Origin: a virus
Virus record (IMG/VR): IMGVR_UViG_3300010396_001261
Coordinates: 1-25,544 of that record
Length of the DNA stretch: 25,544 nt
Direction: 5' to 3' (one strand)
Under the pieces are notes generated by a model. The model had not been told where the DNA came from. It did no database searches and saw nothing but the letters and a program-made list of their open reading frames with translations. The translations under genes and the position numbers were made by a program. Shown piece by piece: positions 379 through 25,544 of this stretch (positions within the stretch are counted from its first letter, which is position 1; the number at the start of each line of letters is the position of its first letter).

Positions 379-1296
379 TTACAAACCTGCCGCATTGAGC
401 CTGCGCAGTATTTCTGTCATGTCAGCCTCCAAGTTATTCTGCCTTTTCCACATATCACCAGGAGCTTTAAAATTAAAACCGCCATGCCATACTCCGTACC
501 ACACCTCTAAGATATCTTCGGGGAAAACCTCAATATTCGGATATAGATTGCGATCGTTAACGGCGTCTGATTTTGCTACAATATAGCCGTACTTATCAAC
601 CCTGTTTAAAAGACGCTTAACAATAACGCCATCGGTTTTGGTAACAAGGATATGAACGCGGTCCTCACGAATATAATCAAGCTTTTCGACCCACTGGCCA
701 ATAACCATCTCCTTGTCGTGCAATGTCGGGTACATGCTATCTCCGCCAACTTCAAAAGCCCTGAATGTGCCGTCACGCAAACCAGGAAGATTAAATGACG
801 GGAGCCTTTCTAAAAATACCGGATCAGCGTATCCATTAAGGTAACCAGCCGCAGCCTTAACCGGTACATAAAGTATATTTTCATCGCCGCCGTGATCTAC
901 AGTTATAATTTGCGGTATCAATTGGGTTTTATCTCCGCGACCCGGTGAGTATTTAATTTCGGGTTCGTTTAACACAAAGTCTTCGTTTCCTGGCTCGACT
1001 ACATTAACCGCGTTGTTTTTTCTGACAAACAATCTGTCTCTGTCGGTAATGTTCCCTTCAATAAATGTCGTGATGAGCTCTTTGTTAGGGTATACAGATA
1101 GATCAGTTTTGACTAAATCATTGAAGGGAATGTGAAAATAATTCACAAGATTAAAAATAAAATCCAGCTTGGGTTCGCTTCCGCGCTCGTACGATGCAAT
1201 ATTGTCCCTGGAGCAATTTAACAATGCGCCCATTTCGGCTTGATTTAAGCCGTTTATTATGCGTAAGTGCTTGATATTCGAACTCGTATAACTCAT
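379..1296 (-). CDS. phage repressor, HTH plus S24/LexA-like peptidase domain
   Basis: A 305-residue CI/LexA-type repressor. Residues 5-60 form an HTH_3 (Cro/CI) domain, with the recognition region around LNQAEMGALLNCSRDNIASYERG. The C-terminal S24 domain shows an Ala-Gly self-cleavage site (A150-G151 in VKAAAGYL), the serine of GDSMYPTL (S187) and the general-base lysine in GVIVKRL (K227). All three are in the family order, so RecA-stimulated self-cleavage and SOS induction are expected. The last 25 residues look like a short helix or coiled coil beyond the S24 domain. I chose the ATG at 1296. An in-frame GTG at 1311 would add five residues, but it is formed by operator bases. Mu itself uses a different repressor type, so this is a lambdoid-style switch on a transposable phage. 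Confidence 0.93.
   Translation of the reverse strand: MSYTSSNIKHLRIINGLNQAEMGALLNCSRDNIASYERGSEPKLDFIFNLVNYFHIPFNDLVKTDLSVYPNKELITTFIEGNITDRDRLFVRKNNAVNVVEPGNEDFVLNEPEIKYSPGRGDKTQLIPQIITVDHGGDENILYVPVKAAAGYLNGYADPVFLERLPSFNLPGLRDGTFRAFEVGGDSMYPTLHDKEMVIGQWVEKLDYIREDRVHILVTKTDGVIVKRLLNRVDKYGYIVAKSDAVNDRNLYPNIEVFPEDILEVWYGVWHGGFNFKAPGDMWKRQNNLEADMTEILRRLNAAGL
1131..1147. promoter_or_regulatory. operator O1 inside the repressor gene
   Basis: A 17-bp dyad TGTGAA-N5-TTCACA. It is identical, in reverse orientation, to the 17-mer at 1296-1312. It lies within the repressor coding sequence, 165 bp (centre to centre) from O2, which would allow looping or transcriptional roadblock autoregulation. Binding by the repressor is inferred from the repetition of the motif at the switch. 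Confidence 0.7.
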
Positions 1297-1312
1297 GTGA
1301 ATTATTTTCACA
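1296..1312. promoter_or_regulatory. operator O2 at the repressor start
   Basis: A dyad TGTGAA-N5-TTCACA whose first base is the A of the repressor ATG, read on the minus strand. A bound protein would cover the repressor's translation initiation region in DNA. Its centre is 31 bp from O3, about three helical turns, so two dimers would sit on the same face. Confidence 0.75.
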
Positions 1313-1715: not shown

Positions 1716-2096
1716 ATGAAAAAACGACCCGCTTCATTTGAACACGCCTGCGAGATGCGCGGGTATGATCCCGCAACCATTTTGCCCGATGTATCAAAAA
1801 TGCCTGAAGCGCTTGCCAAATACACCACGGCGGCTGTTAAGCGCCTGGTGATCGTGGAAGCCATTAACGACGGCAAGGTGCCGCAGCCAGGACAGACATG
1901 GCGCTATTTCCCGATATTCAAAAAGACAGGCTCGGGCTTCGGGTTCCTGTACTCGGACACGGACTACGGTAGCACGGGCACGGACGTCGGCGCCCGCCTC
2001 GAATTTTTCACGCAAGCCGACAGCGACTATTTCGGAAACAACTTTAGGGGCCTGCACTACGACGTGATGGTAGTAGAGCAGCCAGCAGAACAATAA
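1716..2096 (+). CDS. DGR target protein 1 (distal)
   Basis: A 126-residue soluble protein without signal peptide. Residues 73-95 are encoded by variable repeat VR1. The framework shared with the two targets at 9089 and 9555 is an N-terminal helical part, then an alanine-rich helix ending IxxAxNxGKxP, then W-x-YF, then SGFGF-x-YS, the variable tract, VGARL, and a closing helix (GNNFRGLHYD). In DGR target proteins the variable tract normally sits on a C-type-lectin-like fold and forms a binding surface. That fold is expected here but not provable by eye. It is the third early gene, between the Cro-like and transposase genes and about 8 kb from its template. I chose the ATG at 1716 because an upstream in-frame start would run through the small membrane gene. 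Confidence 0.85.
   Translation: MKKRPASFEHACEMRGYDPATILPDVSKMPEALAKYTTAAVKRLVIVEAINDGKVPQPGQTWRYFPIFKKTGSGFGFLYSDTDYGSTGTDVGARLEFFTQADSDYFGNNFRGLHYDVMVVEQPAEQ
1932..1999 (+). repeat. DGR variable repeat VR1
   Basis: A 68-nt match to the template repeat at 9995-10062, in the same codon register. Every difference lies at a template adenine: 8 of 17 adenines in the core are changed, plus the four edge adenines shared by all variable repeats. It ends with the GC-rich 14-mer GTCGGCGCCCGCCT; the next base (C instead of T) is the first non-adenine mismatch and sets the 3' boundary. Confidence 0.93.
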
Positions 2097-2164: not shown

Positions 2165-4186
2165 ATGCCGCATTTGTGGAATAACCAATTAGTAGTAACC
2201 AAAGACGAGCTTGTGCCAGCCTGGTATAAAACCGTTAATGCGCTCTGCGTTACGGTCCAGCGGTTCAAGGACCGGGAATGGGGTATCAAACGGGCATCGA
2301 CCGGGCATAACGGCTCGCAGATGCTGATCCTATTCGATAGTCTCGCCCCGCAGATACAGCAGGCCCTCGGCGATCCGCGCAAATGCACCCACATCCTGGA
2401 GCGGTTTTTTAAGATAGACGGCGACGCCGTTTCCTTTTACGCTTCCTTCCGCTTTGAGGACGGCACCTACCTGGCTACCGAATACCAGGAACGCTACATT
2501 GCCAACGCAAGTATGATCAAAGCGGTCATAGCCCTTCGGCAGGACCGCGAAACCATGCGCCGCAACCTCGGCGGCAAGCTCAAGAACGTACCGGCAACAC
2601 TATGCGCGGATGCCCACAGCTTCCAACCCACGTTGCTCTCAAAACACAAACTGCAACATACCCTACCCGAGAACGAGCGCTGCTTTATGGACGCGATCAG
2701 GGCGTTTGAGCGCGACGGCTACCCCTCGCTGATCAGCAAAAAACACAAAAACCAAAATACCCGCAAAGTTACCGATGAGACGCTCGACTTATTGAACAGC
2801 CTGTTTGCCGGTGACCGCGCCAAGCCGACAGCTACCGAAGTTTACCGCCGCTATGATGCCTTTATCAACGGCTACATGGAGGTGATCAATAACAATACGG
2901 GCGAGCTTTACGAGCCGGCTGAATTCAAAAAGCTCAGCGACGCCACCGTTAAAAACTACATGGCGCAGTGGGTAAATAAAATAGGCACTTACTCGCTGCG
3001 CAGCGGCGACAGGCAGAAACTGATGCAACAGTTTAAACCACACCATACGCTTTTAAAGCCCAAACACGCGGGCAGTATTATATCTATCGACGACAGGCAG
3101 CCACCTTTCAAAACCCCCAACGGTAACCGCGTTTGGTTCTATAACGGTATCGACCTGGGCAGCGAGGCATTCACCTGCTGGGTTTACGGCGATACCAAAG
3201 ACGGTATCATCACCGAGTTTTACCGCCAGCTGGTACGCAATTATGCGCAATGGGGTTTAAGTCTGCCCTATGAGCTCGAGGCCGAAATGAGCTTGAACAG
3301 TTCCTTTACCGGGACCTTTCTTCGCGAGGGCGCCATGTTCTCCAAAGTGCGCATCGAAGCCAACAACGCCAGGGGAAAGCGGATAGAGCGATATTTCAGG
3401 AGCCTTCGGTATGGTTTGGAAAAGGACCGCGAGGGGTGGCTGGCCCGTCCGTTCGCGTTAAGCGAAAGCAACCAGGCCGGCCCACGCGACGTGCCGGCTC
3501 TTCCTGAGCGCACTATCATCGAAAACGCCCTGCGCGACATCGAGACATGGAACAATCAGCCGCACTCGGTACACACACACATGAGCAGGTGGCAGGTGTT
3601 CTGCGAAATGCAGCACCCCGACCTGAAGCCGATCAATTACCCAGCTATACTGCCACATATTGGCCGTAAAACACCAACAAGTTGCAATGTCGGCATCGTT
3701 CATCTTCAAAGGAAAGAATTTTTATTAGCCAATGACGGCAAGATAGCACTCGGTGATAAGCTGATCCAGCTGATGAAGCAAGTGGAAGGCAAAGACGTGG
3801 ACGTTTGGTGGCTCGACGACGATCAGGGCGTCGTGTTAAAAGCACTGGTATTTATCGGCACGCAGCTGATCTGCGAGGCTATGGCCAAACCTACCTATAA
3901 CCGCGCCACGCTGGAACAAACCGATGTTGATCGCGGAAGCCGTCAGATCATGAGCGCTTATGTGAAAACGATCGAGTCGTTCGCCAAGCGGCAAAAGAAA
4001 AGCATCGATAAGGTTACCCTTGTCGATAATCGCCCTGCACTCAAAAAAGACTTCGTTATGCCCGGACTACGCCAGGACAGGCTGCAAGATATGCCAACCG
4101 GCGGCTTGCTGCCCGAGCCGGAAGAGGACGAACTGGTACACGTTCCGCAGGAAAGCTTTGTGCGGACGCTTAAAGACAGATTTTAA
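2165..4186 (+). CDS. Mu-type DDE transposase (subunit A)
   Basis: A 673-residue protein in the position and of the size of MuA (663 aa). The N-terminal part is a DNA-binding module. The central part is an RNase-H-like catalytic core starting at GSIISIDDRQPPF (D309 or D310) and closing with ANNARGKRIERYF, whose E408 fits the catalytic glutamate. The C-terminus resembles the Mu transposase beta-barrel and tail. The usual D-N-G of the second carboxylate is not seen; the equivalent stretch reads LPYELEAEMSLNSSF, so E370, E372 or E374 may take its place. The enzyme nicks the phage ends and transfers them to target DNA, for integration and replicative transposition. It is followed 11 bases later by the MuB-like ATPase gene. 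Confidence 0.93.
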   Translation: MPHLWNNQLVVTKDELVPAWYKTVNALCVTVQRFKDREWGIKRASTGHNGSQMLILFDSLAPQIQQALGDPRKCTHILERFFKIDGDAVSFYASFRFEDGTYLATEYQERYIANASMIKAVIALRQDRETMRRNLGGKLKNVPATLCADAHSFQPTLLSKHKLQHTLPENERCFMDAIRAFERDGYPSLISKKHKNQNTRKVTDETLDLLNSLFAGDRAKPTATEVYRRYDAFINGYMEVINNNTGELYEPAEFKKLSDATVKNYMAQWVNKIGTYSLRSGDRQKLMQQFKPHHTLLKPKHAGSIISIDDRQPPFKTPNGNRVWFYNGIDLGSEAFTCWVYGDTKDGIITEFYRQLVRNYAQWGLSLPYELEAEMSLNSSFTGTFLREGAMFSKVRIEANNARGKRIERYFRSLRYGLEKDREGWLARPFALSESNQAGPRDVPALPERTIIENALRDIETWNNQPHSVHTHMSRWQVFCEMQHPDLKPINYPAILPHIGRKTPTSCNVGIVHLQRKEFLLANDGKIALGDKLIQLMKQVEGKDVDVWWLDDDQGVVLKALVFIGTQLICEAMAKPTYNRATLEQTDVDRGSRQIMSAYVKTIESFAKRQKKSIDKVTLVDNRPALKKDFVMPGLRQDRLQDMPTGGLLPEPEEDELVHVPQESFVRTLKDRF

Positions 4187-4197
4187 TTTTTAATGAT

Positions 4198-5097
4198 ATG
4201 ATCAATATCTCAGGAGAACTAAAAGAACAGGCACGGCTCGCCCTGCTTACACAGCGCGAGAACTTCGACGGCAGCGACGCCGCCTTTGCCAAACAATGGG
4301 GAATAAACCAGGGCGTATACAGCCGCCTTAAAAAAGGGCAGATCGACGGCGTGCTCGCCGATCCGCACTGGCTGAACATCTGCCGCGAGCTGAACGTGGG
4401 CGCGACCGTACGCAAATGGGAAATAGCCCGCACCGACGTGTTTAACCAAATTGAGGAGGATGTGCTGTTTTGCAAGGAGCATGCCAAGGCGATGATCTTC
4501 GTTGACGACTGCGAGATAGGCAAAACCGTCGCCGCCAAATACCTTTCACGGAACCTAAAGAACTGCTTTTACATCGACGCGAGCCAATGCAAAACTAAAC
4601 AGCAGTTTGTGCGCAAGCTGGCAAAAACCATCGGCGTTGATCAAAACGGCAAATATGCCGAAGTAAAGGCCACGATAAAATACTACCTCAAGATATTGCC
4701 TAAGCCGATCGTGATCGTTGACGAGGCCGGCGACCTCGAATATAACGCCCTGATGGAACTTAAGGAGTTTTGGAATGCGACCGAGGGCGCATGCGCCTGG
4801 TACATGATCGGCGCCGACGGGCTGCGGGCCGCGATAGACCGGGGCATCAGCAACAAGAAGGTTGGTTACCGCGAATTGTTTAGCCGGTACAGCAACAAAT
4901 ACAGCAGCGTAGTGCCGCAGGGTAACCAGGCCAAGTTGATGTTCTATAAAAAGCTGATCGGCGACGTACTGCGCGTGAATATGAAGGACACTACGGACAT
5001 CGATAAGATAATTAACAAGTGTATAACCCGCAAGGATAACGATGTGAACATCGGCGGCCTGCGCCGCGCCGAAAGCATCCTGCTGCTCAATCAATAA
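4198..5097 (+). CDS. MuB-like AAA+ ATPase, transposition subunit B
   Basis: A 299-residue AAA ATPase directly after the transposase. Residues 1-80 form an HTH-like N-terminal domain (AAFAKQWGINQGVYSRLKKG), as in MuB. The P-loop is FVDDCEIGKT, with aspartate where the first glycycle-position small residue of the Walker A motif is normally found, and Walker B is PIVIVDEAGDL. An arginine-rich C-terminal helical region follows. MuB binds target DNA as filaments, activates MuA and gives target immunity. The family assignment is strong because of gene order, size and the HTH-AAA layout. Confidence 0.9.
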   Translation: MINISGELKEQARLALLTQRENFDGSDAAFAKQWGINQGVYSRLKKGQIDGVLADPHWLNICRELNVGATVRKWEIARTDVFNQIEEDVLFCKEHAKAMIFVDDCEIGKTVAAKYLSRNLKNCFYIDASQCKTKQQFVRKLAKTIGVDQNGKYAEVKATIKYYLKILPKPIVIVDEAGDLEYNALMELKEFWNATEGACAWYMIGADGLRAAIDRGISNKKVGYRELFSRYSNKYSSVVPQGNQAKLMFYKKLIGDVLRVNMKDTTDIDKIINKCITRKDNDVNIGGLRRAESILLLNQ

Positions 5098-9088: not shown

Positions 9089-9553
9089 ATGAAAATAAAA
9101 CTTAACCTCAACGGCGGGGAGATCGAGGTCGACCTTACCCCCGAACAAATTAACAAGATCAAAGCGATGCCGGGGAGCATCGAGGATCGCATCGACGGCT
9201 GGGAAAGCGTGGCCGCGATCATGGGCTTTCACCCGGTGGATGACCTTCCTTATCCTAATCCTAAAACGGAGCGCCAGGAGGCCGTGAATGCCTTCTTTGT
9301 GATGGACGTGGCCGCCGACGCCTATAACGAGGGTAAGATACCCGACTTCCAGGATGCCAAACAGGAGAAGTGGTTCGATTATTTTAAGCGCAACCCATCG
9401 GGCTTCGGGTTCCTGTACTCGCTCACGTTCTACGCTCACACGCACTCGTACGTCGGCGCCCGCCTTTCTTTATTGAAACGGGAACACGTCGCCGATCGGG
9501 CAAAGAAGTTCGATACCTGGATACAAAAATTATTAACTAAAACAAAGCAATAA
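9089..9553 (+). CDS. DGR target protein 2
   Basis: A 154-residue soluble protein without signal peptide. Residues 104-126 are encoded by variable repeat VR2, and the current variable residues include Y, L, F, A, H, H, S and Y. The N-terminus has a short beta motif (MKIKLNLNGGEIEVDLTPEQINKI) lacking in the other two targets, so the shared core is joined to different N-terminal parts. The shared core is AAxxAYNEGKIPD, W-x-DYF, SGFGFLYS, VGARL and a closing helix ending DTWIQK. It is 2 bases from target 3 and probably co-translated. No tail-fibre or virion feature is visible. Confidence 0.88.
   Translation: MKIKLNLNGGEIEVDLTPEQINKIKAMPGSIEDRIDGWESVAAIMGFHPVDDLPYPNPKTERQEAVNAFFVMDVAADAYNEGKIPDFQDAKQEKWFDYFKRNPSGFGFLYSLTFYAHTHSYVGARLSLLKREHVADRAKKFDTWIQKLLTKTKQ
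9398..9465 (+). repeat. DGR variable repeat VR2
   Basis: A 68-nt copy of the template repeat in the same codon register. 10 of 17 core adenines are substituted, the four shared edge adenines are replaced, and no non-adenine position differs. It ends with GTCGGCGCCCGCCT. It lies 597 nt upstream of the template. Confidence 0.95.
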
Positions 9554-9554
9554 C

Positions 9555-9947
9555 ATGAAAACACCCCAACAAATCAAAACCTGGGAAGACGTTTGCGAAG
9601 GACTGCAAATTGACCCCGTAAAATCGCTGGAGTTCCTTCAGTACATGGATGCGGACGACCGCGAGCATCACGAATTTGACTTTAAGCTCAAAAAGCTGGC
9701 AAAGCTGGCCTGGGGCAACGTCGAGGCAGACTTCCGTAAGGGCCGCCAGGAGAAATGGTTCCCTTTATTTAACGGCAACCTTAGTGATAAACCCTCGGGC
9801 TTCGGGTTCCTGCGCTCGCACTCGTACTACGGTCACACGTGCACGGTCGTCGGCGCCCGCCTTTCCTATCCCTCGGAAGCATGGGCTGATTGCGCGGGCC
9901 GCGAATTTGAGGATTGGTACCGCAAAGCTTACGTGGTGGTAAAATAA
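9555..9947 (+). CDS. DGR target protein 3
   Basis: A 130-residue soluble protein. Residues 81-103 are encoded by variable repeat VR3, the most changed of the three. The framework W-F at RQEKWFPLF, then SGFGFLRS, VGARLSYP and the closing helix AGREFEDWYRKAYVVV, matches the other targets. The EFEDWYRK end is close to the end of target 1 and target 2. A free cysteine appears in the variable tract (codon TGC from AAC). It ends 47 bases before the template repeat, giving the classic target-template-reverse transcriptase order. Confidence 0.88.
   Translation: MKTPQQIKTWEDVCEGLQIDPVKSLEFLQYMDADDREHHEFDFKLKKLAKLAWGNVEADFRKGRQEKWFPLFNGNLSDKPSGFGFLRSHSYYGHTCTVVGARLSYPSEAWADCAGREFEDWYRKAYVVVK
9795..9862 (+). 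repeat. DGR variable repeat VR3
   Basis: A 68-nt copy of the template, offset by exactly 200 bases from it. 11 of 17 core adenines are changed (for example AAC to CGC, TGC and GTC, with both adenines altered). No non-adenine differences occur. It ends with GTCGGCGCCCGCCT. Confidence 0.95.
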
Positions 9948-10174
9948 TTAAGAACTAAGGGTTGTATGCTGTATGCTGGCTGTGGCTGGGTTACTCAGGC
10001 TTCAGGTTCCTGAACTCGAACACGAACTACGATAACACGAACACGAACGTCAGCGCCCGACTTACTTGAACTTACACGGCATAGACCTTGCCAGCATGGC
10101 AAAAAATAACGAACAAAAACCGGGCGTTGGTACCCCGCTCAACCGGGAGAACACGACCGCTAAAAGAAAAGGCA
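9948..10174 (+). ncRNA. probable DGR RNA carrying the template
   Basis: A 227-base stretch without a conserved gene, between target 3 and the reverse transcriptase. It holds the template repeat and, after it, a perfect 6-bp hairpin (TTGCCA-GCA-TGGCAA, 10088-10102). In studied DGRs the template lies in a structured RNA that the reverse transcriptase primes on, with essential sequence downstream of the template. The ends of this RNA cannot be seen. A 31-codon frame starting at the ATG at 10096 and ending at 10191 also lies here. Confidence 0.6.
9995..10062 (+). repeat. DGR template repeat (TR)
   Basis: A 68-nt non-coding repeat whose core (10013-10048) is built from AAC and ACG codons with TAC and GAT, 17 adenines in 36 bases. 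It is the unmutated master of the three variable repeats: 41 of 63 adenine comparisons differ and 0 of 141 others. AAC and ACG codons can vary widely at A without ever giving a stop codon. Its last 14 bases differ from the variable repeats at two adenines (GTCAGCGCCCGACT against GTCGGCGCCCGCCT), as expected for an IMH*/IMH pair that sets the direction of transfer. Confidence 0.95.
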
Positions 10175-11152
10175 TTGAAACGGATCGGTAATTTATACAA
10201 TAGCGTTTGCAGCATCGAAAACCTTATGCTTGCCGATACAAAGGCCAGCAAGCGAAAATCGCAGCAGCATGGCGTGCGTGTGCATAGAAAACGTCGCGGC
10301 TGCAATATCCTGTCGCTGCACAATTCGCTGATGGATAATGCCTTTGTCACATCGCCGTATCACACCTTTATCCTGTACGACCCAAAAGAACGCGAAATAA
10401 AGGCGTTACCGTACTTCCCCGACCGCATTGTCCACCACGCGATAATGAACGCCCTGGAGCCCGTATTTACCGGCTGCTTTACCGCAGATACCTACAGTTG
10501 CATTAAAGGCAAAGGCATACACGGCTTAAAGCGCGGCATCGAGCGCGCGCTGAGGAATGCGCCCGCAACGAAATACTGCTTTAAGCTGGACGTAACCAAG
10601 TTTTACCCGTCTATTGGTCACGCAATACTGAAACAGCAGCTCCGTCGCAAGATAAAGGATAAGGACCTGCTGGCGCTGCTCGACGAGATCATCGACAGCT
10701 CGCCCGGCGTACCGATCGGGAATTACCTGAGCCAGTATTTCGCCAACTTCTATCTTACGGGGTTCGACCATTGGTTAAAGGAAACGATGCGCGTAAAGCA
10801 TTATTTCCGGTATGCCGACGATATGGCCATCCTGGCGCCGACCAAAGAGGAGCTTCACAAACTGCGCGTTGCCATAACCCAATACCTGGCAGATAACCTG
10901 AAGCTAACGGTAAAGGGTAACTACCAGGTATTCGAGGTAGACGAACGCGGGCTTGACATGGGCGGCTATCGCTTTTACAGCACGCATACACTACTGCGCA
11001 AGTCGATCAAGAAAAGCCTGTGCCGCGTTATCGCCCGGCGCAGAAAGCGCAATGCAACTGTAAATCGTTCGTCCGTTTCCGCTTATTACGGCTGGGCAAA
11101 GCATTGCGACAGCAGGCACCTGCTCAGGAAACTAAACCTTAACCTATCATGA
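10175..11152 (+). CDS. DGR reverse transcriptase
   Basis: A 325-residue RT from the TTG at 10175, giving MKRIGNLYNSVCSIENL, the usual start of DGR reverse transcriptases. An upstream in-frame TTG at 10088 would add 29 atypical residues. Motifs in order: LPYFPDRIVHHAIMNAL (78-94), SCIKGKGIHGLKR (108-120), FKLDVTKFYPSI (136-147, first catalytic aspartate D139), GVPIGNYLSQYFANFYL (178-194, the GNxxSQ form typical of DGR enzymes), YADD (213-216) and LDMGGYRF (260-267). No maturase, endonuclease or integrase domain is present, which separates it from group II intron RTs. It copies the template RNA into cDNA with errors at adenines for transfer into the three targets. Its stop overlaps the next ATG. 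Confidence 0.95.
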   Translation: MKRIGNLYNSVCSIENLMLADTKASKRKSQQHGVRVHRKRRGCNILSLHNSLMDNAFVTSPYHTFILYDPKEREIKALPYFPDRIVHHAIMNALEPVFTGCFTADTYSCIKGKGIHGLKRGIERALRNAPATKYCFKLDVTKFYPSIGHAILKQQLRRKIKDKDLLALLDEIIDSSPGVPIGNYLSQYFANFYLTGFDHWLKETMRVKHYFRYADDMAILAPTKEELHKLRVAITQYLADNLKLTVKGNYQVFEVDERGLDMGGYRFYSTHTLLRKSIKKSLCRVIARRRKRNATVNRSSVSAYYGWAKHCDSRHLLRKLNLNLS

Positions 11153-11445
11153 ACACATTTGCACAATTTGGAATAGAGAAAATTACACAACGTGCCCAAT
11201 TTACGGGGCCTAAAATAACGGTTGGCAAGGTGCTTAACCGCGAGATCATAGTTAATGCCTATCGCATCGTCGACAGCAAGTTTGAAGGCAAGCGCCTGGA
11301 TATTGACATTTTGTTAAACGACGAGTTGCGCCTGTTGTGGACCGGCCGTAAATCGCTGATGGAAGCGATACAGCTCGTCCCGAAAGACGGCTTCCCATTT
11401 AAGGCGACGATCATATTCGAAAATGAGATTTATCAATTTAGTTAA
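11149..11445 (+). CDS. small protein coupled to the DGR reverse transcriptase
   Basis: A 98-residue protein starting in an ATGA overlap with the RT stop and ending in a TAATG overlap with the DndC-like gene. It is mixed alpha/beta with beta-rich middle (KITVGKVLNREIIVNAYRIVDS) and end (FKATIIFENEIYQF), and reads like a small OB- or ssDNA-binding-like fold. No cysteine or signal peptide. It is not an evident Avd protein, which is a helical-bundle of about 125 residues, but it is the only gene translationally coupled to the RT. Its part in the DGR is unknown. Confidence 0.7.
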   Translation: MNTFAQFGIEKITQRAQFTGPKITVGKVLNREIIVNAYRIVDSKFEGKRLDIDILLNDELRLLWTGRKSLMEAIQLVPKDGFPFKATIIFENEIYQFS

Positions 11446-12653
11446 TGAGAAATATCCAAACAAACCTATTCACAGGCATCAGCAAGCGGCTGCAAATGAA
11501 TGACAGCATAGAACTTACCATTCAATCGCTAAACGCATACGGGCCAAAGTACAACCATTGGGCGCTGGCCTGGTCGGGCGGCAAGGATAGTACCGCAACG
11601 CTGACGCTGGTTGTGTGGCTCATTCAATCCGGTAAGATAAAAGCCCCGAAAACATTAACGGTCCTTTTTGCCGACACACGCCTCGAGCTTACGCCGCTCA
11701 TGGCATCCGCTTACGAGATCATGGACGACCTGAAAGAATTAGGCATAGAGGTTCGCGTGGTCATGGCCGAAATGGATAAGCGTTTCTTTGTGCTCATGTT
11801 CGGCCGGGGCATTCCGCCGCCGGGCGCCGGGTTCCGCTGGTGTACCGGCAATATTAAAATTTCACCTATGGAGAACGAGCTGGCGCGGCTTCATGCTGAA
11901 AAGGGCGAAAAGATATTAATGATCACCGGCGTAAGGCAGGGCGAGTCCGCCGTGCGCGATAACCGGATCATCATCAGTTGCAGCAAGAATGGGACCGAAT
12001 GCGGCCAGGGTTATTACCAGGAAACGCTGCCCGCATCCCTGTGCGATACGCTGGCCCCGATCGTACACTGGCGCGTTTGCCATGTATGGGAATGGCTTCG
12101 CACCTGGGCGCCGTTAGAGGAGTATGGTAACTGGAGTACAAAAATGCTTGCCGAAGCATACGGCGGCGACGAGGCCGAGGAGATCAATGCCCGCACGGGC
12201 TGCATGGGCTGCCCGGTAGCGAGCCAGGATAAAGCATTGGAAACCGTCGTGCTGCGACCTGACTGGCGTTACTTATCGCCACTCCTTCGCTTAAGAAACG
12301 TATTTGAAGAGCTACGCTTAAATAAGTCATTCAGGAAACGGCATCCGGGCGGTGAAACTAAAAAGGATGGCACCCTCGTCAAAAATCAGCAGCGCCTGGG
12401 GCCGCTTACTATGGAAGCCCGGCGCTGGGGCATGTCGCAAATATTAGCGATCCAGTCGGAAGTTAACGAGAACGCCTCAAAGCTCGGTCGGCCGACGATC
12501 GACATCCTAAACCAATCGGAAGTTAATAGGATCAACGAGCTGATCGAATTAAATACTTGGCCTGACAAATGGACCGGCGAGGAGCCGACAGCCGATACGG
12601 TGATGGATGTGTTTTACAAAGACGGAAGTGTTCAACCATTATTAAAATTTTAA
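11445..12653 (+). CDS. DndC-like PP-loop ATPase (PAPS reductase family)
   Basis: A 402-residue member of the PAPS reductase / DndC group of PP-loop ATPases. The AMP-forming loop SGGKDST lies at residues 44-50, RWCTGNIK at 131-138 (C133), and ARTGCMGCPVASQ at 249-261 (C253, C256). These cysteines resemble the iron-sulphur-binding cysteines of DndC. DndC activates sulphur for DNA phosphorothioation; phage relatives act on unknown substrates. The neighbouring ASCH and DUF4406 genes make a nucleic-acid or nucleotide modification role plausible. No dndB, D or E gene is present, so complete phosphorothioation by this locus is unlikely. Confidence 0.85.
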   Translation: MRNIQTNLFTGISKRLQMNDSIELTIQSLNAYGPKYNHWALAWSGGKDSTATLTLVVWLIQSGKIKAPKTLTVLFADTRLELTPLMASAYEIMDDLKELGIEVRVVMAEMDKRFFVLMFGRGIPPPGAGFRWCTGNIKISPMENELARLHAEKGEKILMITGVRQGESAVRDNRIIISCSKNGTECGQGYYQETLPASLCDTLAPIVHWRVCHVWEWLRTWAPLEEYGNWSTKMLAEAYGGDEAEEINARTGCMGCPVASQDKALETVVLRPDWRYLSPLLRLRNVFEELRLNKSFRKRHPGGETKKDGTLVKNQQRLGPLTMEARRWGMSQILAIQSEVNENASKLGRPTIDILNQSEVNRINELIELNTWPDKWTGEEPTADTVMDVFYKDGSVQPLLKF

Positions 12654-15336: not shown

Positions 15337-16578
15337 TTAATCCCGGTTATATTCTGTATACTCCCCGTCATTCGTCACAAAAATTATCGAGGTGATATTC
15401 GGTATGCGTTTAAACCGCTCTTTCGCTATCGCGGCCAGGTCGATGTGTCCGTAGTCGCCGGTAAGCAGTATCACTACCTTATCGGCCTGTTTGGCTGCGT
15501 CCGCTATTCTTTTCTGAATAGCTGCCGACGTTATCGGCTCGGCCGGTGTCTTCATTTCGGCATATTCACCGCCGATGGTCAGGTCCGGGTTTTTATCCCC
15601 TTTTACACCGGGCAAAAGCTCGTTTCGAAGCTCGGTTTCATTTGCGTGGATCTCGGGCAAAATGTCAACGATAATCCCCGCGTCGGCCAGCACTTTGCCC
15701 ACGGTAAGCAGGTTGTCGTAATCGGGACCTTTTTCGATATCCGTTTTCCTGTTCACCTGTAACTGCGTGCCGTCTTCCGCTTCGTACTTCACAATGTACT
15801 GCTCGTCTTCGGGCATATACAGCGTTGCGTTGTTTAACAGGTGCGGGGGCATGTCCTTGTAATAATCCGCATCGTCCGGGAATGCGCGTCCCTTTTTACC
15901 AACGTTGAATTTAAAGTTATCCGGTATTTGTTCCGGGTAGGCGATATCATCTTTCGGCGTGGCTTTTCCCGACCGCAGCTGGCGCACAGTACTGCGGCAG
16001 TTAAAATGGTTCGGCGGGTAATACTTGTCCCAAAACGGATCGTCAACCGGCAGCGTTACTTTATCGAGCGGTCGGCAGATCGTTGATGTGCGGTCGTCTA
16101 TCACGGCGTCAAACTCCAGCAGCGGGAACGTGTCTTTCGTCTCCTGGATCGTTTGCCACTTTGCCGCCATCTGCGCACCGGCTATGGCGCTGTCGTACTC
16201 GGTGCGCAGCCAGTTCAATTGCTGCCCGGCTATATTTTGCGCCTCGATCTTAAAATCGTTAAAGCTCCTGATCTTCCCGTCGGGACCGATCAGCGCGTTA
16301 TTCATATCGCGCAACTGGCGGGATGTCTTGGCAGCCGAGAACTGCCATGCGTTATTTTGCAGCGCAACCAGTGTTTTGTAATCCGGGCTGTCCCAGGCCA
16401 GGTCGGCCAGCTTGCTGCCGTAGCCCTCAATGATCGCGTCGCCCAGCTGCTTGCCATAGGCGCGTATCAGGTTAGGGTCGGTTTCGGGCGCTTCGCCCGC
16501 ATCCCACAGCTTTTTGATCAGCGCATCAATGTACTTCTTGTACTCGGGCGGCTCGTCGCCTGCCGAAAGGTTTAGCAC
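15337..16578 (-). CDS. MuF-like head protein fused to a CdiA-CT-like PD-ExK nuclease
   Basis: A 413-residue two-part protein. Residues 1 to about 205 form the SPP1 gp7/MuF head morphogenesis domain, with DAVIDDRTSTICRPLDKV (158-174) and PPNHFNCRSTVRQL (188-201). After a linker, residues about 255-413 look like the CdiA C-terminal tRNA-nuclease type: VGKVLADAGIIVDILPE, then PD at 331-332 and ExK at 341-343 (AEMKT), then AAIQKRIADAAKQADKVVILLTGD. MuF proteins with toxin C-termini are known polymorphic toxins of temperate phages. Only a few copies enter each head and they may be ejected with DNA. The GTG at 16578 is the only common start codon; the frame stays open upstream to 16686. No immunity gene is evident next door. 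Confidence 0.85.
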   Translation of the reverse strand: MLNLSAGDEPPEYKKYIDALIKKLWDAGEAPETDPNLIRAYGKQLGDAIIEGYGSKLADLAWDSPDYKTLVALQNNAWQFSAAKTSRQLRDMNNALIGPDGKIRSFNDFKIEAQNIAGQQLNWLRTEYDSAIAGAQMAAKWQTIQETKDTFPLLEFDAVIDDRTSTICRPLDKVTLPVDDPFWDKYYPPNHFNCRSTVRQLRSGKATPKDDIAYPEQIPDNFKFNVGKKGRAFPDDADYYKDMPPHLLNNATLYMPEDEQYIVKYEAEDGTQLQVNRKTDIEKGPDYDNLLTVGKVLADAGIIVDILPEIHANETELRNELLPGVKGDKNPDLTIGGEYAEMKTPAEPITSAAIQKRIADAAKQADKVVILLTGDYGHIDLAAIAKERFKRIPNITSIIFVTNDGEYTEYNRD

Positions 16579-25139: not shown

Positions 25140-25544
25140 ATGGAAAAGTTTATCAAACAAGCAAAAGACATTTTCGGCCGCTACTCGCAAAAGGACACGG
25201 TCTATTTCACCGGCGACGGACAGCCGTTTTTTGATGAGAATGCCGCCGCGAACCATAGCCAGTCGCTGGCTGATAAAACAGTAACCGCGATAAGCCGTAA
25301 GAATATTGTCGCCACGGCTGACGAAGCTGACGCACAAGCTGAGGCCGATGCCAAAACAGCAGAAGAGCAGGCCGCAGCAGACGCTAAGGCAAAAGCCGAC
25401 GCCGATGCTAAAGCAGCAGAAGAGCAGGCCGCAGCAGAAGCCCAGGCAAAAGCCGACGCCGATGCTAAAGCAGCAGAAGAGCAGGCCGCAGCAGAAGCCC
25501 AGGCAAAAGCCGACGCCGATGCTAAAGCAGCAGAAGAGCAGGCC
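25140..25544 (+). CDS. repeat-rich protein, cut by the window end
   Basis: At least 135 codons from the ATG at 25140, with no stop before the window ends. The first 60 residues are unique (MEKFIKQAKDIFGRYSQKDT start, no signal peptide). From about residue 62 it becomes an Ala/Glu/Gln/Lys/Asp-rich helix repeating every 19 residues (ADAKAAEEQAAAEAQAKAD). TolA-like and other long single-helix or coiled-coil proteins have this composition. It follows the structured leader at 25020-25116. Its late-operon place suggests a virion or tail-associated protein, but function is unknown. Confidence 0.75.
   Translation, partial: MEKFIKQAKDIFGRYSQKDTVYFTGDGQPFFDENAAANHSQSLADKTVTAISRKNIVATADEADAQAEADAKTAEEQAAADAKAKADADAKAAEEQAAAEAQAKADADAKAAEEQAAAEAQAKADADAKAAEEQA
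25344..25544 (+). repeat. 57-bp tandem repeats
   Basis: Units at 25344-25400, 25401-25457, 25458-25514 and a partial at 25515-25544. Units 2 and 3 are identical and the partial unit matches them exactly; unit 1 differs at a few positions. Each unit is 19 codons, so gain or loss keeps the frame. Confidence 0.92.

Follow-up and report, generated by a model that had tools for sequence, protein, structure and literature searches.

The analysed stretch of DNA, referred to as the window in the following, comprises 25,544 nucleotides. This 25.5-kb virus record represents a Mu-like phage of the Bacteroidota type which carries a diversity-generating retroelement (DGR) and encodes, in addition to the genes listed below, a portal protein, a large terminase and a MuF-like gene. 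The DGR consists of a template repeat (TR), three variable repeats (VRs), a spacer and a reverse transcriptase (RT). Column numbers refer to the alignment of the family.

379-1311, minus strand: repressor gene
1931-1999, plus strand: VR1, a remote target in ORF 1716-2096, between the repressor and transposase genes
1996-2006, plus strand: IMH segment of VR1, GCCTCGAATTT, with weak spacer pairing (dG -6.4; TR -5.3)
2165-4186: transposase gene
4198-5097: transposition protein gene
9398-9465, plus strand: VR2 in ORF 9089-9553
9462-9472, plus strand: IMH segment of VR2, GCCTTTCTTTA (family columns 76-86), pairing with the spacer tail (dG -11.0)
9794-9862, plus strand: VR3 in ORF 9555-9947
9859-9869, plus strand: IMH segment of VR3, GCCTTTCCTAT (dG -9.4 with the spacer tail)
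9994-10065, plus strand: TR, with A-specific and no non-A mismatches against the three VRs
9997 and 10004, plus strand: 5' edge marks, A in the TR versus G in each of the three VRs (columns 14 and 21 of the family, with G in 95-97% of VRs)
about 10013-10049, plus strand: exchanged core of the TR
10049-10062, plus strand: IMH*-like 3' edge of the TR, GTCAGCGCCCGACT, with the marks A10052 and A10060 (family columns 69 and 77)
10089-10101, plus strand: spacer RNA hairpin 1 (UGCC/GGCA; RNAalifold, compensatory changes in 37 loci)
10121-10159, plus strand: spacer RNA hairpin 2 (CGG.CGU / ACG.CCG, conserved UGGUA internal loop; RNAalifold)
10162-10173, plus strand: spacer tail or "anti-IMH", AAAAGAAAAGGC, which the consensus fold leaves unpaired and which is complementary to the VR IMH
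10175-11152, plus strand: DGR RT (motifs VPIGNYLSQ and FRYADD/YADD; Pfam RVT_1; phrog_1423, E 1e-112), probably starting with the TTG at 10175

The assignment as a DGR is based on 12, 15 and 16 mismatches between the TR and the individual VRs, all of them at template adenines and 0 at any other base, as well as on an RT which adjoins the TR and contains the (I/V/L)GxxxSQ and YxDD motifs typical of DGRs. The scanned neighbouring ORFs gave no Pfam match to Avd, a scan which a diverged Avd could escape. VR1 is located about 8 kb from the template, and remote targets are also present in relatives (L022, L104, L126, L091 and L059). The target proteins (ORFs 9089-9553, 9555-9947 and 1716-2096) are small, about 125-155 amino acids, and harbour their VR in mid-protein rather than at the C-terminus. 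An AlphaFold model of a target protein is mostly helical with a mean pLDDT of 83, which is low in the VR; since a fold search with this model yielded no PDB match, no C-type-lectin fold is recognised in the predicted structure. Directly downstream of the DGR a protein of the PAPS-reductase family (Pfam PF01507) is encoded at 11445-12653. The MuF-like head protein (15337-16578, minus strand) ends in a C-terminal CdiA_C domain (Pfam) of the contact-inhibition-toxin type, and the end of the window (25323-25544) is made up of 108-nt tandem direct repeats with 57-nt spacing which perhaps belong to a repetitive structural gene.

A preceding sequence-only reading of the window had claimed that the three VRs end in an identical 14-mer at two positions of which the template has adenines (10052 and 10060), and that the 5' template adenines 9997 and 10004 are likewise replaced identically in all targets. 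Both statements prove correct. The 14-mer GTCGGCGCCCGCCT is present exactly three times in the window (1986-1999, 9452-9465 and 9849-9862), while its template version at 10049-10062 deviates by two mismatches; if two mismatches are allowed, 4 matches are found compared to 0.24 expected, and four were reached in 0/100 shuffles. The TR adenines 9997, 10004, 10052 and 10060 correspond to G, G, G and C in all three VRs. In contrast, at the 17 core adenines (10013-10047) the three VRs never agree on a non-A base (0/17), and the differences among the VRs are confined to the core. The chance that exactly these four of the 21 adenines are the shared ones amounts to 1/5985 (exact P = 1.7e-4), and four such shared sites would be expected with P of about 1.8e-6 under the core substitution frequencies of the family. 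As had been stated, two of the four marks are silent third codon positions (9997, TCA/TCG; 10060, CGA/CGC). The other two, 10004 (Arg to Gly) and 10052 (Ser to Gly), are first codon positions.

We fetched 80 viral and 80 bacterial-genome loci with related RTs and identified their TR/VR pairs by an A-tolerant scan; the edge-column statistics refer to the 61 distinct templates of the first, viral locus set, aligned on their own sequence. The conservation of the marks in related elements, which the sequence-only reading had named as a check, is observed, as the positions do not vary freely. At column 69, 55/61 templates carry A and 113/115 target cells are G; at column 76 the figures are 52/61 for template A and 103/105 for target G. 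A template A at column 77, as at 10060, is accompanied by a target C in 15/15 cases, a template A at column 80 by a target T in 90%, and at the 5' columns 14, 15, 20, 21 and 22 the target base is G in 85-100%. Along the 3' edge a template A differs from the target in 366/372 cells, compared to 48/1480 cells for C, G and T; the held-out loci described below agree with this (284/289 and 35/1286 cells). At least one fixed 3' A mark is found in 61/61 templates, a 5' mark in 49/61, which is hence optional. The core columns 28-66 are variable and retain A in 38% of cells. The constancy of the edge columns next to this variable core indicates that the target edges are not rewritten and that the 3' exchange border is situated between columns 66 and 69; it is sharp and not more than about 3 nt away from the first 3' mark. 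Leaks are rare: A is kept at column 69 but not at column 76 in two targets (L021, L049), and T occurs at column 14 in L067. At four-fold silent edge sites only 4/168 VR cells contain A (71 G at columns 14 and 20, 15/15 C at column 77, 72 T at column 80). Since these silent sites are fixed too, protein selection alone fails to account for the marks, as the sequence-only reading had argued. As to individual templates, L136 contains a second TR-like copy 5' of the usual template, about 720-800 nt upstream of the RT, and the template core of L031 is unusually A-poor and GC-rich (GGCGCGGCTGGCTGGGGCGCG), possibly that of a degenerating template.

The spacer between TR and RT (10063-10174 in the window) forms a conserved structured RNA with two hairpins, of whose pairs 11/12 are supported by compensatory changes (37 loci) and whose loops, UGGUA-type and GAA, are invariant. 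Rfam gave no match in the window, this spacer RNA being absent from Rfam. An MFE fold of the window which pairs CAGCGCCCG with CGGGCGTTG was rejected, as family covariation places that strand in hairpin 2. The last bases 5' of the RT start read AAAGCAAAGGC in most loci and are single-stranded in the consensus fold. A 31-codon ORF without family match (10096-10191) shares sequence with both the spacer and the region where the RT starts.

The spacer tail is complementary to the target edge GCCTTTGCTTT (IMH, VR columns 76-86) but not to the template edge ACCTATGC, where the A marks (columns 76-81; 10060 in the window) break the pairing. With the spacer, the VR forms 7 or more contiguous Watson-Crick pairs in 111/133 loci, the TR in 12/133. 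Among 80 non-redundant loci the VR exceeds the TR in 74 and falls short of it in 3, the mean helix length being 8.6 bp for the VR versus 4.6 bp for the TR (Wilcoxon 5e-14); the mean duplex dG is -12.8 versus -6.2. Control matches to the opposite strand (5/80), another part of the spacer (7/80), the RT start region (5/80) and the VR core (2/80) remain far below the real pairing (61/80). All template-A differences located inside helices disrupt pairing (302/302). Furthermore, both partners covary: VR TTTGC goes with GCAAA in the spacer (Fisher 5e-8). As the MAFFT alignment of the spacer tails is too gappy for fixed column pairs, longest-helix statistics with swapped spacers were used, and in 20,000 trials of spacer swaps among 25 noncanonical loci the real mean was never reached (P = 5e-5). 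Covarying VR/spacer pairs are GCCTTGTGTTT/AAACACAAGGC (L003), GCCTTGTTT/AAACAAGGC (L020), CTCTGTTTT/AAAACAGAG (L057), GCCTTGTTTTT/AAAAACAAGGC (L122) and GCCTCTG/CAGAGGC (L130). A held-out set of 68 new non-redundant loci, fetched afterwards and run with identical settings, contains helices of at least 7 bp in 56 VRs versus 6 TRs (swap P = 0.004) and adds new covarying cases such as CTCTGCTTCAT/ATGAAGCAGAG. For the 5' edge, complementarity to the spacer or the upstream region is not above that of shuffled sequences. The literature searched, outside of which the main structural and survey papers fall, contained no mention of VR-spacer complementarity.

The window's own repeats pair modestly with the spacer. 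Six pairs plus a bulge or mismatch are seen for VR2 and VR3, and VR1 is barely above the TR, as reflected in the energies (-11.0, -9.4 and -6.4 for VR2, VR3 and VR1; -5.3 for the TR). A spacer-complementary IMH is evident at the family level, and in the window by the energies of VR2 and VR3 only. Since VR1 hardly pairs with the spacer it may be a weaker target.

Comparison with BPP-1 reveals a corresponding arrangement. According to the BPP-1 record, the IMH differences concern the TR bases C120, T124, A126, C127 and C128; positions 1 to 22 show no difference between TR and VR. The VR segment TGACCACCT (VR 118-126) is perfectly complementary to Sp 48-56, AGGTGGTCA, over 9 bp; the TR retains 5 bp, the differences at 120, 124 and 126 breaking the pairing. 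For BPP-1 alone a 9-bp match has a chance near 1.6%. In its clade, TGACCA is found opposite spacer TGGTCA in the VR of 46/54 relatives and in the TR of 0/54, both partners being nearly invariant so that there is little covariation. In BPP-1 and its clade the complementary spacer element precedes the RT start by about 90 nt. Spacer base 56 (A56) is, as we assume, the published cDNA priming adenine, and the first cDNA base presumably lies opposite TR 117 (G117). Spacer and cDNA would then constitute one continuous complement of the target.

The sequence-only reading had likened the window's repeat ends to the GC-rich IMH/IMH* pair which sets the direction of transfer in BPP-1. This likeness stands in part. 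Both systems have fixed TR/VR differences at the 3' end, just past the exchanged tract, and a VR IMH complementary to the spacer, unlike the TR; conserved but differing 3' ends of target and template, as well as silent marks beyond the reach of protein selection, support the comparison. The GC-rich 14-mer, in contrast, is not the counterpart of the (GC)14 element, which is the same in TR and VR of BPP-1 (PMC3240598), since the GC-rich stretch of the window itself carries differences. Moreover, the BPP-1 marks are mostly non-A and confined to the 3' end, whereas the window's family has A-coded marks at both ends, the 5' ones thus being without counterpart. BPP-1 has Avd, none of which is seen in the window, and a GC-rich hairpin downstream which the window's family lacks; in this family the spacer element adjoins the RT start. 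No hairpin or cruciform follows the window's three VRs, and none that is GC-rich with 7 bp was found 3' of 153 family VRs, for which reason a downstream cruciform of the BPP-1 type was rejected. Hence, the 3' marks constitute an IMH/IMH* pair, and the likeness to BPP-1 as a whole is supported in part, with a direction-setting role suggested by sequence comparison.

Further DGRs share individual traits with the window's family. The archaeal DUSEL4 elements, with IMH TGGGGT versus IMH* TGGAAT (PMC4372165), likewise carry G in the target and A in the template at the marks; they differ by their archaeal origin and a trinucleotide-loop hairpin within the target gene, and spacer pairing is not reported for them (PMC4372165). 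The hankyphage (Bacteroides phage p00) is also a Mu-like transposable Bacteroidota phage with a DGR, and hankyphage elements exhibit the VR-spacer pairing GGCCTTC/GAAGGCC plus covarying versions of it. The repeats of p00 are long, with 117 bp, its single target is placed terminally in a large tail protein, an Avd-like gene is present and the RT is only distantly related. The RTs of crAss-like phage DGRs are the nearest named relatives (46-52%) and the VR ends are of the VGSRLC type; in a paper on crAss-like DGRs with an 'SRLC/A' IMH, the IMH and IMH* of LMMB are reported to be identical (PMC7290462), and in the crAss-like cr55_1 spacer pairing was not detected. The same applies to ANMV-1, Treponema and a few other DGRs examined. 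VR-spacer pairing is, in turn, also present in long-repeat gut Bacteroidota DGRs and in one Chlorobi element.

On these grounds we consider it rather probable that the marks represent differences between the TR and VR edges of a functional DGR, outside the exchanged segment, and that the 3' marks within the helix act through the spacer pairing they break. The complementarity could be real and yet serve another role, namely control of RT translation, with target mRNA base-paired to the ribosome-binding region of the RT; or the marks could serve only to prevent the TR and its spacer from folding together. In the window's family the paired spacer tail precedes the RT start by about 8-16 nt, at the ribosome-binding region, and this overlap makes translation control a live rival; TR and spacer are, besides, on one RNA, so that an unmarked TR would be expected to make an internal helix. 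We nevertheless regard this alternative as unlikely, because in BPP-1 and its clade, where the element lies far upstream of the RT start around what we take to be the priming site, TR and VR still differ there.

Selection at the protein level, according to which mutated copies are purged owing to a structural role of the VR-terminal Gly and Arg, could draw on the VGARL/VGSRL motif, whose Gly and Arg are the only invariant columns among 35 aligned targets. Being at odds with the equally fixed four-fold silent positions, and leaving both the retention of A in the template and the spacer covariation unexplained, it is very improbable as the explanation and is largely refuted by the silent positions; as a contributing factor at 10004 and 10052 it remains. 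The adenines might also act as wildcards of a filter in which the edges are copied, template A is randomised and only cDNAs with the target base anneal and integrate. Such a filter would agree with the near-restriction of edge mismatches to template A and with the leakage in rare VRs described above. It is, however, unnecessary, as broken spacer pairing explains the 3' marks both in the window's family and in BPP-1, whose mostly non-A marks it would moreover not predict, and we give it still less credence. Least probable of all appears a functionless drift of edges that are merely outside the copied region. The exchanged tract does end short of the marks, but drift should affect all bases and positions, while the same columns contain A in the vast majority of templates (55/61 and 52/61), no template lacks a 3' A mark and the spacer changes in step with the VR edge.

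The preferred reading, broken spacer pairing, suggests how target and template might be told apart. As published, cDNA synthesis is primed within IMH* by an internal adenine of the spacer, which leaves RNA and cDNA joined; the latter anneals to the coding-strand template, best if this is the lagging one (PMC12875486). Within the TR-spacer RNA it would be the spacer portion, linked to the cDNA, that pairs with the IMH and so anchors to the coding strand of the VR; the anchor site would adjoin the cDNA annealing site on the same strand, the spacer tail holding the cDNA in place. The TR, unable to pair with the spacer, would not be anchored and would be spared, so that information would flow only from TR to VR. 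This role is assigned to the mark 10060 and, in relatives, to columns 76-81. Spacer pairing may accordingly be the source of directionality in the window's family, and complementarity to the spacer RNA is the best discriminator between target and template. What this adds to the sequence-only reading is that the 3' edge of the target matches the spacer RNA tail base for base, which could let the copying machinery tell the target from its master. In its general form we advance the idea tentatively, at somewhat less than an even chance: DGR retrohoming would be RNA-guided, with a spacer anti-IMH joined to the cDNA pairing with the target IMH and an IMH* that is non-matching by design. As a rule in Bacteroidota DGRs, the BPP-1 clade and hankyphages this would set the direction and let one template address several distant genes. 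How a DGR finds its target without overwriting its template has been a question since the IMH was defined in BPP-1, and the integration step is still called incompletely understood in a 2026 paper (PMC12875486). An IMH-spacer complementarity which is broken in the template and covaries over about 150 elements opens this question to direct mutational test and offers a simple design rule for retargeting DGR systems in laboratory strains.

The marks 9997, 10004 and 10052 are conserved yet lie outside the helix, and pairing does not explain these three. With respect to column 69, a candidate TR:spacer priming duplex, UGUCAG:YUGGUA, is noted, which is invariant and has mismatches at other positions, while column 69 itself is Watson-Crick paired in 90 cases, G-U paired in 33 and mismatched in 0.
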